Source: Leisingera caerulea DSM 24564
Lineage (GTDB): Bacteria; Pseudomonadota; Alphaproteobacteria; Rhodobacterales; Rhodobacteraceae
Assembly: GCF_000473325.1 (NCBI RefSeq)
Contig: NZ_KI421514.1
Location: 190,340 to 254,339 of the forward strand
Length of the DNA: 64,000 nt
Direction: 5' to 3'
The notes beneath the pieces were generated by a model. It saw only the letters and a program-made list of their open reading frames with translations. It did not search any database and had not been told where the DNA came from. Shown here piece by piece: positions 35,092-39,605 of the stretch. Positions within the stretch are counted from its first letter, which is position 1, and each line of letters opens with the position of its first letter. The position numbers and the translations under genes were made by a program.

Positions 35092-35982
35092 ATGCAGCCC
35101 CCCGGACCGCCGTCATCCTCCCTGCCCCCGCTCACCTGGCTGCGCGCCTTTGAGGCCAGCGCCCGGCATCTGTCGTTCACCCGCGCCGCGGCAGAGCTGA
35201 ACCTGACGCAATCGGCAATCAGCCAGCATGTGCGCAGCCTGGAGAACTTTCTGGGGAGGGAGCTGTTCATCCGCAAAACCCGCGCGCTGGAGCTGTCGGA
35301 GGCCGGGGCGAATTACATGCCGATCGTGCGCGAGGCGTTCGACCTGATTGCCGCCGGCACCCAGGCCTTTACCGGCGGCGACCAGGGGCGGCATCTGGTC
35401 TTGCAGTGCAATATGGCATTCTCGGTGTTCTGGCTGTCGCCGCGCCTGCCCCGGCTTTATGAGCGCTTTCCTTGGCTGGTGCTGAATATCGTGACGCCGA
35501 TCTGGGATCCGGAACGCCATGCCAGCTCTGCCGGGACAGAAATCCGTTTCGGCCGCCCGAATGACATGTCAGCGGCAGCGGTGCGGCTGACTTACGACCG
35601 GTTCTATCCGGTCTGCGCTCCTGATTATCAGGATGGCGCGTTTGATTTCGGCAGCGCAACGCTGCTGGATTGTGCAGGCGTGACAGGCTCCTGGGGCGCG
35701 TGGTTCAAGTCGCAGGACCTGCCGTTTGAACGCAATCACGAGATCAACCTGGCCTCCACTTACGTGATCGCCATGACCGCGGCGCTGAATGGTGCGGGCA
35801 TGGCAATGTCGCATGACACGCTGGCGGGCGGGCTGCTGGAGAGCGGCCAGCTGGTCCGGGCCAGCGATCACTCGGCAGAGCTGCTGGAGAATTACTTTCT
35901 GATGCCGCCGCCCAGCCATGCCAGCACCCCGGCATCGCGCGCGTTTCTGGAGTGGCTGGAGGGGGAACTGCCGCCGGTTTAG
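35092..35982 (+). CDS. LysR family transcriptional regulator (GcvA-like)
   Basis: This 296-residue regulator has the N-terminal HTH (FTRAAAELNLTQSAISQHVRSL, about residues 24-45) and a periplasmic-binding-like effector domain (about 95-290). It is divergent from the class II aldolase/hydroxylase pair with a palindromic operator between them. The HTH is similar to that of the LysR at 58653, which also stands next to a fatty acid hydroxylase. Confidence 0.9.
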   Translation: MQPPGPPSSSLPPLTWLRAFEASARHLSFTRAAAELNLTQSAISQHVRSLENFLGRELFIRKTRALELSEAGANYMPIVREAFDLIAAGTQAFTGGDQGRHLVLQCNMAFSVFWLSPRLPRLYERFPWLVLNIVTPIWDPERHASSAGTEIRFGRPNDMSAAAVRLTYDRFYPVCAPDYQDGAFDFGSATLLDCAGVTGSWGAWFKSQDLPFERNHEINLASTYVIAMTAALNGAGMAMSHDTLAGGLLESGQLVRASDHSAELLENYFLMPPPSHASTPASRAFLEWLEGELPPV

Positions 35983-36005: not shown

Positions 36006-36071
36006 GGGCAGCGCCCGTCCGCCCCCACGGGCGGGCGCTACGCTTCCGCCCGCGGACGAGCACTGCCCTCA
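36006..36071. repeat. 66-bp dispersed palindromic repeat, copy 1
   Basis: This element is 62/66 identical to 48207-48272. Its ends (GGGCAG...CTGCCC) and inner arms (GCCCGTCCGC / GCGGACGAGC) are inverted repeats, so it folds into a long stem-loop. It is intergenic in both places, about 108 bases before the queC riboswitch here. Confidence 0.8.
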
Positions 36072-36179
36072 CAATGTGCCGCCAACGCCAAACTTTCAAA
36101 TTTCCCTAACAAGTCCTGCCGAATGTTCGCAATGCGCCCGCACCTTGCGCCATTCCCGCCTTGCTGCTAAACGCGCGGC

Positions 36180-36214
36180 ACCGGTCGCAGCCTACCCGGT
36201 CACCAAAACAAGGG
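36180..36214 (+). promoter_or_regulatory. preQ1-I riboswitch before queC
   Basis: The 35-base sequence has P1 stem ACCGG / CCGGT, loop TCGCAG... ending in a ligand-binding C (36195-36196 region), and A-rich tail ACCAAAACAAGGG. The segments GGTCGCAG and AAAACAAGGG coincide with the Thermoanaerobacter tengcongensis preQ1-I aptamer as I remember it. The tail GGG is the Shine-Dalgarno sequence 7 bases before ATG 36222, so ligand binding should hide the ribosome site and reduce translation of queC and probably the operon. Confidence 0.85.
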
Positions 36215-36221
36215 TTCAAAA

Positions 36222-36923
36222 ATGAAAACTATCGTTATCTGCTCGGGCGGGCTGGATTCCGTTTCGCTTGCCCATATGGTCGCTGAGGAACATCAGCTGA
36301 CCCGTCTTGTCTCCTTCGATTACGGCCAGCGCCACAGGAAGGAACTCGACTATGCCGCCGCCGCAGCCAAACGGCTGGGCGTGCCGCATGACATCATCGA
36401 CATGAGAGGCATAGGCGCCGCGCTTTCGGGCTCGGCCCTCACCGATGACATCGACGTGCCGGACGGCCACTACGAGGAAGAGACCATGAAGGTCACCGTG
36501 GTGCCGAACCGGAACGCGATCATGCTGACCATCGCCTATGGCATTGCTGCCGCAAACGGAGACGACGCGGTGGCAACCGCAGTGCATGGCGGTGATCACT
36601 TCATCTATCCGGACTGCCGCCCGGCCTTTACTGAGGCCTTTGATGCCATGCAGCGGGCCGCGCTGGACGGTTATGCCGACGTGCGGCTGTATACCCCGTT
36701 TGTGCAACGCACCAAGGGCGACATCGTCACCGCCGGTGCCAAGCACAACACCCCCTTTGCCGAGACCTGGTCCTGCTACAAGGGCGGCGAGAGGCACTGC
36801 GGGCGCTGCGGCACCTGCGTGGAGCGGCGCGAGGCGTTCCACTTGGCTGGGGTCGAGGATCCGACGGACTACGCCGACCCGGAGTTCTGGAAGGCGGCAA
36901 TAGCCGCCAAGGACGGCGCCTGA
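36222..36923 (+). CDS. queC: 7-cyano-7-deazaguanine synthase
   Basis: This 233-residue ATP-dependent enzyme makes preQ0 from 7-carboxy-7-deazaguanine. The PP-loop SGGLDSVSLA is at residues 6-15 and a zinc set of four Cys in SCYKGGERHCGRCGTC near the C-terminus. It is the first gene behind the preQ1 riboswitch and overlaps queD by one base (TGATG). Confidence 0.96.
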   Translation: MKTIVICSGGLDSVSLAHMVAEEHQLTRLVSFDYGQRHRKELDYAAAAAKRLGVPHDIIDMRGIGAALSGSALTDDIDVPDGHYEEETMKVTVVPNRNAIMLTIAYGIAAANGDDAVATAVHGGDHFIYPDCRPAFTEAFDAMQRAALDGYADVRLYTPFVQRTKGDIVTAGAKHNTPFAETWSCYKGGERHCGRCGTCVERREAFHLAGVEDPTDYADPEFWKAAIAAKDGA

Positions 36924-37288
36924 TGTTCCGGATCACCAAGGAGTTCCACTTCTCCGCCTCTCACCAGCTGACCCATCTGCCGCCGGACCACCAATGCGCC
37001 CGGCTGCACGGGCACAACTATGTCGTGGTGGTGGAGCTGGCGGCGAAGGAGCTGAACAGTGACGGCTTCGTGCGCGACTATCACGAGCTGAAGCCGCTGA
37101 AGGAGTATATCGACGAAACCTTCGACCACCGGCATCTGAATGACGTTCTGGACGGGCATTCAACAGCGGAAAACATGGCGAAGCATTTCTATGACTGGTG
37201 CCATGCGCGCTGGCCCGAAGTGGCCGCGGTGAAGGTCTCGGAGACGCCTAAGACCTGGGCGGAGTACAGGCCGGAGGTTGGGCCGTGA
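36923..37288 (+). CDS. queD: 6-carboxy-5,6,7,8-tetrahydropterin synthase
   Basis: This 121-residue zinc enzyme acts on dihydroneopterin triphosphate in the preQ0 pathway. Zinc His residues are in FSASHQLTH and HGHNY, and the active Cys in DHQCARL. Length is normal. It overlaps queE by 4 bases. Consistent with a complete queuosine precursor operon. Confidence 0.94.
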
Positions 37289-37992
37289 CCCTGCGCATCG
37301 CTGAAATCTTCGGCCCCACCATCCAGGGCGAAGGCGCCCTGATCGGGGAGCCCACGGTGTTTGTGCGCGCAGGCGGCTGCGATTACCGCTGCTCGTGGTG
37401 CGATAGCATGCACGCGGTCGACAGCGGCTACCGGCGTGACTGGGCGGTGATGGCGCCCGAGGAGGTCATGGCCGAGGTGCGCCGCCTTTCTGGCGGCAAG
37501 CCTTTGACAGTGTCGATCTCCGGCGGCAACCCGGCGATCCAGGACTTTGCCCCGGTGATCGCTTATGGCAAGGCCGAAGGCTACCGCTTTGCCTGCGAGA
37601 CCCAAGGGTCGGTCAGCAAACCCTGGTTTGCGGATCTGGATACGCTGGTCCTGAGCCCTAAACCGCCCTCCAGCGGCGAAACCGTGGACTGGAAGGCCTT
37701 TGATCAATGCCTTGAGGCGGCACAGGGCTGCGGCCAGGCGGTGATGAAGATCGTGATCTTTGACGACAAGGATTACGCTTGGGCCAAGGCCGCCGCTGAA
37801 CGCCACCCGGAGCTGCCGCTGTACCTGCAGCCCGGCAACCCGGAGGTCGACCCCGCCCAGCCGGTCGACTTGCAGCAGGCCACTGACCGTCTGCTGTGGC
37901 TCATCGAAAAAGTGACCGGCGACGGCTGGTTCACCCCCCGCGTCCTGCCGCAGCTGCATGTGCTGGTCTGGGGCAACAAGCGCGGCGTCTGA
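37285..37992 (+). CDS. queE: 7-carboxy-7-deazaguanine synthase (radical SAM)
   Basis: This 235-residue radical SAM enzyme forms 7-carboxy-7-deazaguanine from 6-carboxytetrahydropterin. The cluster-binding CDYRCSWC (Cx3CxxC) lies near residues 32-39, preceded by [20 protein letters not shown]. Overlap with queD indicates coupling. Confidence 0.95.
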
Positions 37993-38008: not shown

Positions 38009-38473
38009 ATGTCCGACAGCATCTACAGCAACCTGAAACAGCTGGGCGGCGACACCGTCGTTCCCAGCAGCCCGGAAGAGGCGGAGCTGGAGCGCGTCCA
38101 GAACCCGCAAGGTGACGTGGCTTATAACGTGCGCTTCACCGCGCCGGAGTTCACCTCGCTCTGCCCGATGACCGGGCAGCCCGATTTTGCCCATCTGGTG
38201 ATCGACTATGTGCCGGGTGAGTGGCTGGTGGAAAGCAAATCGCTGAAGCTGTTCCTCACCTCCTTCCGCAATCACGGCGCTTTCCACGAAGATTGCACCG
38301 TTTCCATCGCCCGCCGCCTGGCGGAGTTTTTGGAGCCGCAGTGGCTGCGCATCGGCGGCTATTGGTACCCGCGCGGCGGCATTCCGATCGACGTGTTCTG
38401 GCAAACCGGGCCGATGCCCGAAGGCGTCTGGATTCCGGACCAGGGCGTGCCCCCCTACCGAGGCCGCGGCTGA
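38009..38473 (+). CDS. queF: NADPH-dependent 7-cyano-7-deazaguanine reductase
   Basis: This 154-residue enzyme reduces preQ0 to preQ1. The active Cys is in [12 protein letters not shown] (C52), and the E/H set in FHEDCT. It is the short unimodular type. ATG 38009 is preceded by ATAGGAACC; the longer frame from 37958 is not needed. It ends the operon, so product preQ1 can act on the riboswitch upstream of queC in a feedback loop. Confidence 0.95.
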
Positions 38474-38534: not shown

Positions 38535-38684
38535 CTGGCTGCCGGCGCAGCTTGCGCGCCATAGCCGCCGCGGGGCTGGTTCGCGCGGGAACCGGTCTTT
38601 CCGTCAAACGTTATGCTTCCAATGCCGCAGGCGCCCCGGCCCCTGCGGCCATCAGCACAGCAATTGCGCGAAAGAGGGGAAGCG

Positions 38685-39605
38685 ATGGCAACGGATTACA
38701 CGCAAGGCGACCGGATTGTCCGGCATTCACCAGCGGGCAGCAGCAACAGCCCCGATGTTTGGGGCCTCTATGAACCGGAAAGCGGATCGGTCCAGTACAT
38801 CTGCGCCGATCCGTCCACACGCAAGGCGGCGCTGATCGACGTGGTGTGGGATTTCGACCCGCAAAGTGCCCGCACTGCCCAGGACAGTATCGACCACGTG
38901 ATGCGGGTGGTCGAGAGCGAAGGGCTAGAGCCCGCCTGGATATTGGACACTCACCCGCACGCCGATCACTTCATGGCCTCCGCCCGGCTGAAGGAGCGCA
39001 CGGGCGCGCCCACGGCAATCGGCGAGAAGACCCGCGAGATTGCTGAACTTTGGCGCGGCTACTACCACATGCCCGAAGCGTTTGATCCCAGCCGCGACTT
39101 TGACCGGCTGCTGGCGGATGGCGACACAATCGCGCTGGGTGATATGCAGATCCGGGTGATGCTGTCGCCCGGTCACACGCTGGGCTCGGTCAGTTATGTC
39201 TGCGGTGATGCGGCCTTTGTCCATGACACGCTGATGCACGCCGACACCGGCACCGCGCGCGCCGACTTCCCCGGCGGCTCCGCTGAGGAGCTGTGGCAGT
39301 CCATCCAGGAGATCCTGTCCCTGCCGGACAACACCCGCCTGTTTATCGGCCATGACTACGGCACCAACGAGCGTGACACCCCCGCCTGGGAGGCCACGGT
39401 GGCAGAGCATCTGGCGCGCAACCCGCACGTGAAGGCCGGGACCCGCAAGGAAGACTGGATCAAGCAGCGCACCGAGCGCGACGAGAGCCTTTCCCTGCCG
39501 GACCGGATGCTGGCAGCCCTGCAGGTAAACCTGCGCGGCGGCCGCCTGGGCGCGGCGGAAAGCGACGGCAATCACTACCTGAAAATCCCTGTCAACAAGT
39601 TCTGA
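38685..39605 (+). CDS. MBL-fold hydrolase, persulfide dioxygenase-like
   Basis: This 306-residue protein has the metallo-beta-lactamase metal set: THPHADHF, GHTLGS, MHAD and GHDYG. With a rhodanese gene 10 bases downstream it resembles ETHE1/Blh-type persulfide dioxygenases that oxidise glutathione persulfide, but activity is inferred. ATG 38685 follows GAGGGGAAG. The open frame begins at 38613. Confidence 0.88.
   Translation: MATDYTQGDRIVRHSPAGSSNSPDVWGLYEPESGSVQYICADPSTRKAALIDVVWDFDPQSARTAQDSIDHVMRVVESEGLEPAWILDTHPHADHFMASARLKERTGAPTAIGEKTREIAELWRGYYHMPEAFDPSRDFDRLLADGDTIALGDMQIRVMLSPGHTLGSVSYVCGDAAFVHDTLMHADTGTARADFPGGSAEELWQSIQEILSLPDNTRLFIGHDYGTNERDTPAWEATVAEHLARNPHVKAGTRKEDWIKQRTERDESLSLPDRMLAALQVNLRGGRLGAAESDGNHYLKIPVNKF

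Follow-up and report, generated by a model that had tools for sequence, protein, structure and literature searches.

The window analysed here, a 64,000-nucleotide stretch of Leisingera DNA, carries 35 bases shortly before queC that raise the question of whether the operon behind them is controlled by a preQ1 riboswitch. The first-pass annotation had read them as a class I preQ1 (preQ1-I) riboswitch, and at the sequence level this reading gains support from the leaders of relatives, from compensatory changes in the P1 helix and from the genes with which the motif is associated. We regard a translational, type II-like class I preQ1 riboswitch governing the queC operon as the best explanation, at a probability of about 90%, with preQ1 as its putative ligand and with a predicted P2 helix and direction of control. 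Its support consists of sequence anatomy, conservation, P1 covariation and association with preQ1 synthesis genes.

Anatomy of the leader and its operon

The features referred to below are as follows.

35092–35982: LysR-type gene, upstream of the element
36145–36150, + strand: possible −35 element TTGCGC, by sequence reading
36168–36173, + strand: possible −10 element TAAACG, tentatively assigned, at 17-base spacing
36180–36214, + strand: candidate preQ1-I aptamer, overlapping the queC ribosome site
36180–36184, + strand: P1 5′ strand ACCGG, by sequence reading; the outer pair covaries
36185–36190, + strand: UCGCAG, L1 plus predicted P2 5′ strand (C36188, G36190), identical to the Thermoanaerobacter tengcongensis (Tte) aptamer
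36191–36194, + strand: L2 CCUA, by sequence reading
36195, + strand: putative preQ1-reading specificity base C, with an A before it (A-C, the type II mark)
36196–36200, + strand: P1 3′ strand CCGGU, by sequence reading
36201–36204, + strand: variable linker CACC, 4 bases (1–9 bases across relatives)
36205–36209, + strand: A-rich L3 plus a C predicted to pair with G36190 in P2; AAAAC in 79/80 queC leaders (best 80 of at least 586)
36210–36214, + strand: AAGGG, predicted P2 3′ strand and queC Shine-Dalgarno, by row comparison
36222–36923, + strand: queC, 7-cyano-7-deazaguanine synthase (TIGR00364, 177.3 bits, cut-off 150.3)
36923–37288, + strand: queD (TIGR03367, 93.6 bits, cut-off 89.25)
37285–37992, + strand: queE (TIGR03365, 357.7 bits, cut-off 206.1)
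38009–38473, + strand: queF, preQ1 synthase (type II) (TIGR03139, 146.2 bits, cut-off 86.9)

The letters reported for P1 (ACCGG/CCGGT), the loop and the tail are confirmed position by position: the ten-base tail AAAACAAGGG occupies 36205–36214, the queC ATG lies at 36222, and the start codon comes eight bases after AAGG. The AAGGG of the tail doubles as the queC Shine-Dalgarno sequence, and the reported overlap with the ribosome site thus holds. Beside the que operon, an MBL-fold protein (38613–39602) shows similarity to the latter portion of Blh (NF040641, 405.8 bits; the cut-off of 625 is not reached).

The Tte aptamer is printed as CUGGG-UCGCAG-UAA-C-CCCAG-UUAAC-AAAACAAGGG (PMC10639078), and the earlier description of the element as a near match to it, with one extra loop base and one fewer linker base, is correct against that sequence. 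Class I is divided into three subtypes in a review, of which type II, including Tte and B. subtilis Bsu, has A-C (not UC) before the 3′ P1 strand (PMC11625349). The element bears this mark (A36194-C36195 directly before the 3′ P1 strand) and lacks that of type III: UC and UCGCAG follow its 5′ P1 strand, not UU and a short pyrimidine-rich loop. It shares with Tte the 5-bp P1, the UCGCAG, the A-C, the tail AAAACAAGGG and the overlap with the Shine-Dalgarno sequence (PMC11625349). Unlike Tte, it has other P1 letters, an L2 of four bases (CCUA) as against three (UAA) and a linker of four bases as against five, and it serves an alphaproteobacterial queC operon. The Leisingera host is not a thermophile, unlike the source of Tte.

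With Bsu, the element has in common the class I layout, a G-C pair in its predicted P2 and an L2 longer than that of Tte. Bsu, however, is described as working by transcription termination (PMC10639078), whereas the leader of the element has no terminator-like site, and the P2 of Bsu, read from its printed sequence as UAG/CUA, differs from that predicted for the element. The E. coli yhhQ leader, whose crystal structure has been solved, is a preQ1-I riboswitch of type III, a type reported almost solely in gammaproteobacteria, where it lies upstream of yhhQ (PMC10622847). The yhhQ leader resembles the element in having A-C before the 3′ P1 strand, CCU nearby and the Shine-Dalgarno sequence in the pseudoknot, but has a shorter pyrimidine loop (UUCCCUCAC) and no UCGCAG.

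The TTGCGC/TAAACG pair is a possible promoter that would start transcription close to 36180. In the −35 region, T is found in 52/80 and G in 40/80 leaders (offsets −36 and −34), and the six nearest relatives have TAAACG, TACACG, TATATG or TATACG at the −10 place; a consensus scan of the leader found no sigma-70 promoter site and no terminator-like site. The start point matters, because an RNA beginning at 36180 forms P1 in a simple fold, whereas with ten more upstream bases another hairpin wins as the minimum-energy fold. Folding of 52 bases showed no unusual stability (z −0.23). A G+C-rich inverted repeat without a T run lies after the LysR-type gene at 36016–36041, where CRISPR-DR9 matches are far under the cut-off.

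Conservation and gene association

A QueC search provided the loci of relatives, from which the best 80 of at least 586 were kept, irrespective of whether their leaders had the motif. Among the matches listed, the five queC genes from named genomes that come closest are all of Leisingera (96–98% identical). In 79 of these 80 leaders (best 80 of at least 586) the motif is no more than 120 bases away from the start codon, L030 being the sole one without it, and the strict pattern stands directly before queC in 78, with L078 having a short linker. The proposed comparison of queC 5′ regions therefore turned out in favour of the riboswitch, with P1 and the tail kept in 79/80 (best 80 of at least 586). 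The same proportion, 79/80 of the best 80 of at least 586, applies to an unchanged UCGCAG, to the tail AAAACAAGG and to the equivalent of C36195. Two further loci, L096 and L098, have G in place of the A of UCGCAG. In the aligned set the C36195 column is invariant in 80/80 rows, which is partly selection because the rows were taken with a pattern that includes this C, the unselected count being 79/80. Upstream, at −70 to −41 before the core, background conservation amounts to 0.08 bits per position (80 rows with the hairpin core).

The linker between arms and tail can be as short as 1 base or as long as 9, with the arms and the tail themselves staying fixed, and loop length varies in L097 and L100. 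L2 reads CCU in 74/79 rows and CCC in 5/79; it is longer in L097, L098, L100 and L179, and in the first three of these it still ends in CCU or CCC before A-C. AAGG is followed by G in 57/79 rows and by A in 22/79, and lies 7–11 bases before the start codon. The outer P1 pair, over 79 rows including the window, is A-U in 43, U-A in 15, C-G in 14, G-C in 3, G-U in 3 and U-G in 1. For covariation this pair scores 0.179, compared with 0.031 in shuffled alignments, 0/500 of which score as high (55 distinct rows picked by pattern). The second P1 pair has one compensatory change, C-G to G-C in L097, among 68 distinct rows of an alignment that was fitted to a model and in which related rows inflate covariation scores. 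Four of the five P1 pairs never vary in the 55 distinct rows. The C-G and G-C pairs of P2 are possible in 55/55 distinct rows and both are invariant, so P2 is without covariation support. Of 99 loci supplied to a further alignment (A3), 97 are present in it; L098 and L100 fell under its E limit.

The motif goes with queuosine precursor genes rather than with the family at large. In a family sample of 199 genomes from 198 genera, the exact pattern occurs in 19 and the same pattern reversed, as a control, in 0. This low count is explained by queC itself, since QueC (E ≤ 1e-20) is found in 20. Motif and queC occur together in 18 family genomes (hypergeometric 2e-22, relatedness ignored), and two, G433 and G518, have queC without the motif, that of G518 standing alone. 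The one motif genome in which queC was not found, G426, has the motif before a pair of genes (L183, 3878–4910, reverse strand), namely queF (TIGR03139, 150.9 bits) and, following it, a transporter gene whose product passes the cut-off of Pfam Vut_1, not that of TIGR00697. The Vut_1 protein is likely a precursor transporter and the set likely a salvage operon; the motif ends 57 bases before queF, not at the ribosome site, with a hairpin-like stretch between. G824 carries two copies of the motif, one before queC and one, with the tail AAAACAGG, immediately before a separate queF. The motif is thus found upstream of preQ1 synthesis or transport genes, namely queC, queF, and queF plus transporter. 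Behind queC, the 80 loci (best of at least 586) have D-E-F in 45, D-E in 16, E-F in 13, fewer in 4 and none in 2, as counted by simple motif searches in which some genes were possibly missed or cut by the end of the locus.

Across the class (387 genomes), a model match was obtained in 16 genomes, 11 of them with the motif before queC, and these have the 11 best-scoring QueC of 56. The next nine class QueC (52–69% identical) have no motif in the leaders read, so that 9/20 class genomes with QueC of at least 52% identity lack it there, as do the ten leaders read among the 36 more distant QueC. In the phylum sample of 299 genomes, 14 have a match, 11 of them before queC and all Alphaproteobacteria; the three remaining matches were judged chance.

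Scores against RF00522 and a model of relatives

The Rfam preQ1 model RF00522 gives the element 21.0 bits (E 0.053 in a 401-base scan), which is 18 bits under its gathering score of 39, yet this is the best match of all Rfam families there. A scan of the whole genome (5.34 Mb, E ≤ 10), in which 150 of 230 candidates were scored, lists the element as the sole place, at 21 bits and E 0.17; under the stricter filters of the many-genome search it is no longer listed. The cut-off is passed in 0/193 alphaproteobacterial genomes and in 1/14 control genomes, and a set of 20 loci, 17 with the motif, had no match over any cut-off. Matches of up to 24.1 bits occur in 71/193 alphaproteobacterial genomes; for the six best of these places, 2–3 kb of surrounding sequence showed no signature of queC, queD, queE or queF, and the remaining sub-threshold places were treated as background. 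The score alone proves little, because the element is unlisted under stricter filters and matches of up to 24.1 bits occur in so many genomes.

The first-pass annotation had named a score below the threshold as the outcome that would speak against its reading, and 21.0 against 39 is such a score. The E. coli yhhQ leader fails likewise, being absent from the RF00522 listing even at E ≤ 10. Since a crystallised type III RNA is also missed and no alphaproteobacterium of the 193 passes, the threshold fails as a refutation; it governs what the model detects and does not define the class, and RF00522 looks blind to the alphaproteobacterial group. There is a clear case for splitting or retraining the model.

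A model built from relatives (R1), with the window among its rows, scores 64.2 bits at the element and 21.4 bits at the next place in the genome, further matches lying under 16 bits (150 of 4219 candidates scored). Within the family, strong R1 matches and the exact pattern pick the same 19 genomes. R1 searches over 40 genomes used strict filters under which only 17–33 candidates were scored per search, and absences of the motif there are for this reason not firm. Weak R1 matches (21–28 bits) without a recognisable Q gene downstream were judged chance; those set aside as chance are in five class genomes, as second matches in G281 and G366, and at L083 in the genome of the window itself. Seven further places and L181 were set aside by their longest downstream reading frame. 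G817 has a weak second match of 24.3 bits. The low-scoring L098 (28.6 bits) and L100 (25.5 bits) were retained because queC follows. Matches to CRISPR-DR9 and PyrR210 are chance, at 14.5 bits or less and far under the cut-off.

Mechanism, alternatives and distribution

In the mechanism that we propose, the leader would fold into the hairpin P1, and plentiful preQ1 would sit between P1 and P2 and be read by C36195. The 3′ tail AAAACAAGG would then dock, G36190 pairing with C36209 and C36188 with G36212. Docking would tie up the first Shine-Dalgarno bases and lower the translation of queC and, through the tight packing of the operon, that of queD, queE and queF as well; as QueF makes preQ1, the operon would repress itself. 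Translational control is the natural reading, since the Shine-Dalgarno sequence is the predicted P2 3′ strand, the leader has no terminator-like site and the start codon stands eight bases beyond AAGG. The feedback loop described for this one locus is complete on paper, because the operon itself includes QueF, the preQ1-making enzyme, and the genome has a QueA gene at another place; the gene order queC-D-E-F agrees with it, and repression is its predicted outcome. For Tte, the review reports no measurable switching in E. coli and roughly 2-fold switching in M. smegmatis (PMC11625349).

Three other readings were weighed, two of which overlap with this one. The same fold at the same site might respond to preQ0, or to the sum of preQ0 and preQ1, and not to preQ1 alone. 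The KD of Tte for preQ0 is given as 35 nM, 17-fold weaker than for preQ1 (PMC10622847); queC itself produces preQ0, and the genes found behind the motif include a likely precursor transporter. The presence of queF in the operon or behind a separate copy of the motif points instead to the queF product, and we consider a preQ0 signal unlikely. It is similarly doubtful that the element is a hybrid aptamer in which the CCY of L2 also pairs with the AGG of the Shine-Dalgarno sequence and buries the site more fully or in another register. The E. coli yhhQ leader UUCCCUCAC has such pairs (U11-A28, C10-G29 and C9-G30; PMC10622847), and L2 ends in CCU or CCC before A-C even where it is longer (L097, L098 and L100). 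However, L179 and L180 read CCUU before A-C, the UCGCAG and the tail C are exactly those of Tte, and the two registers share G36212 and are mutually exclusive. Nor is the association of L2 with the Shine-Dalgarno letters significant (CCC with GGG versus CCU with either tail, 9/11 versus 28/51, p = 0.17).

That the stretch is no ligand switch at all, and serves as a DNA operator for a protein (a CCGG inverted repeat) or as a plain structured ribosome site or thermometer, is very improbable. The arms do form an inverted repeat in DNA, and ligand binding is here a prediction, but the asymmetric loop and the tail are conserved as strongly as the arms, the spacing from arms to tail varies from 1 to 9 bases and the loop varies in length (L097 and L100), and the conserved bases are those of the solved preQ1 aptamer. 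We also think it improbable that these elements constitute a separate, fourth class I subgroup, in which a Tte-like pocket is combined with a type III-like CCY segment able to pair with the Shine-Dalgarno sequence as well, so that the ribosome site is locked in two registers, and which spreads along with a queCDE(F) operon transferred laterally among chromosomes, chromids and plasmids.

The preferred reading adds no new class, ligand, gene or logic: the review has Pseudomonadota among the phyla and queCDEF operons among the targets (PMC11625349). Sun 2013, with 15 Rhodobacterales and 15 Rhizobiales included, places preQ1 riboswitches mostly in Firmicutes and in one or two proteobacterial lineages (PMC3766115). 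No description in Rhodobacterales or Sinorhizobium was found in the literature searched, outside which lie the alignments of McCown 2014 and Roth 2007 that may hold alphaproteobacterial rows; class, ligand and mechanism are not new. S. meliloti queuosine genes are needed for normal symbiosis according to PMC3568095, the main text of which has no 'riboswitch'; 'queC', 'exsB' and 'preQ1' are absent from the S. meliloti start-site paper (PMC3616915). What appears to be new is a widespread, overlooked alphaproteobacterial set of putative type II-like class I preQ1 riboswitches. It occurs before queC in many Rhodobacterales and some Hyphomicrobiales, although RF00522 at its cut-off reports none in the 193 alphaproteobacteria sampled, and it presents a close counterpart of the crystallised Tte aptamer in moderate-temperature bacteria, including a genetic model host.

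The motif is not confined to roseobacters and extends to Sinorhizobium and other Hyphomicrobiales. Plasmid or chromid records of S. meliloti 1021 (pSymB), S. fredii NGR234 and Paracoccus denitrificans have it ahead of queC, as do Maritalea and Tianweitania (Hyphomicrobiales). Two contigs of a viral collection with the motif also have queC behind it. The operon may move laterally together with its switch: of 138 plasmid or chromid records with a match (from Sinorhizobium, Rhizobium, Ensifer, Paracoccus and others), 132 have QueC of at least 60% identity, as against 20/199 family genomes with QueC.

R1 has no match in G354 and G224, and RF00522 none in L155. Just before queC in these two genomes (L155 and L156, on the reverse and forward strand, respectively) lies the leader CCCUGUCGUAGCACCAGGUUAAAAACACGAAAG, with CCUG/CAGG and the loop UCGUAGCAC, possibly another preQ1-I-like hairpin that has diverged more. 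The leader before queC in L152 (G325) reads GGGCCUUACCC and, further on, UAAACAAGGG, and could be another variant or chance.
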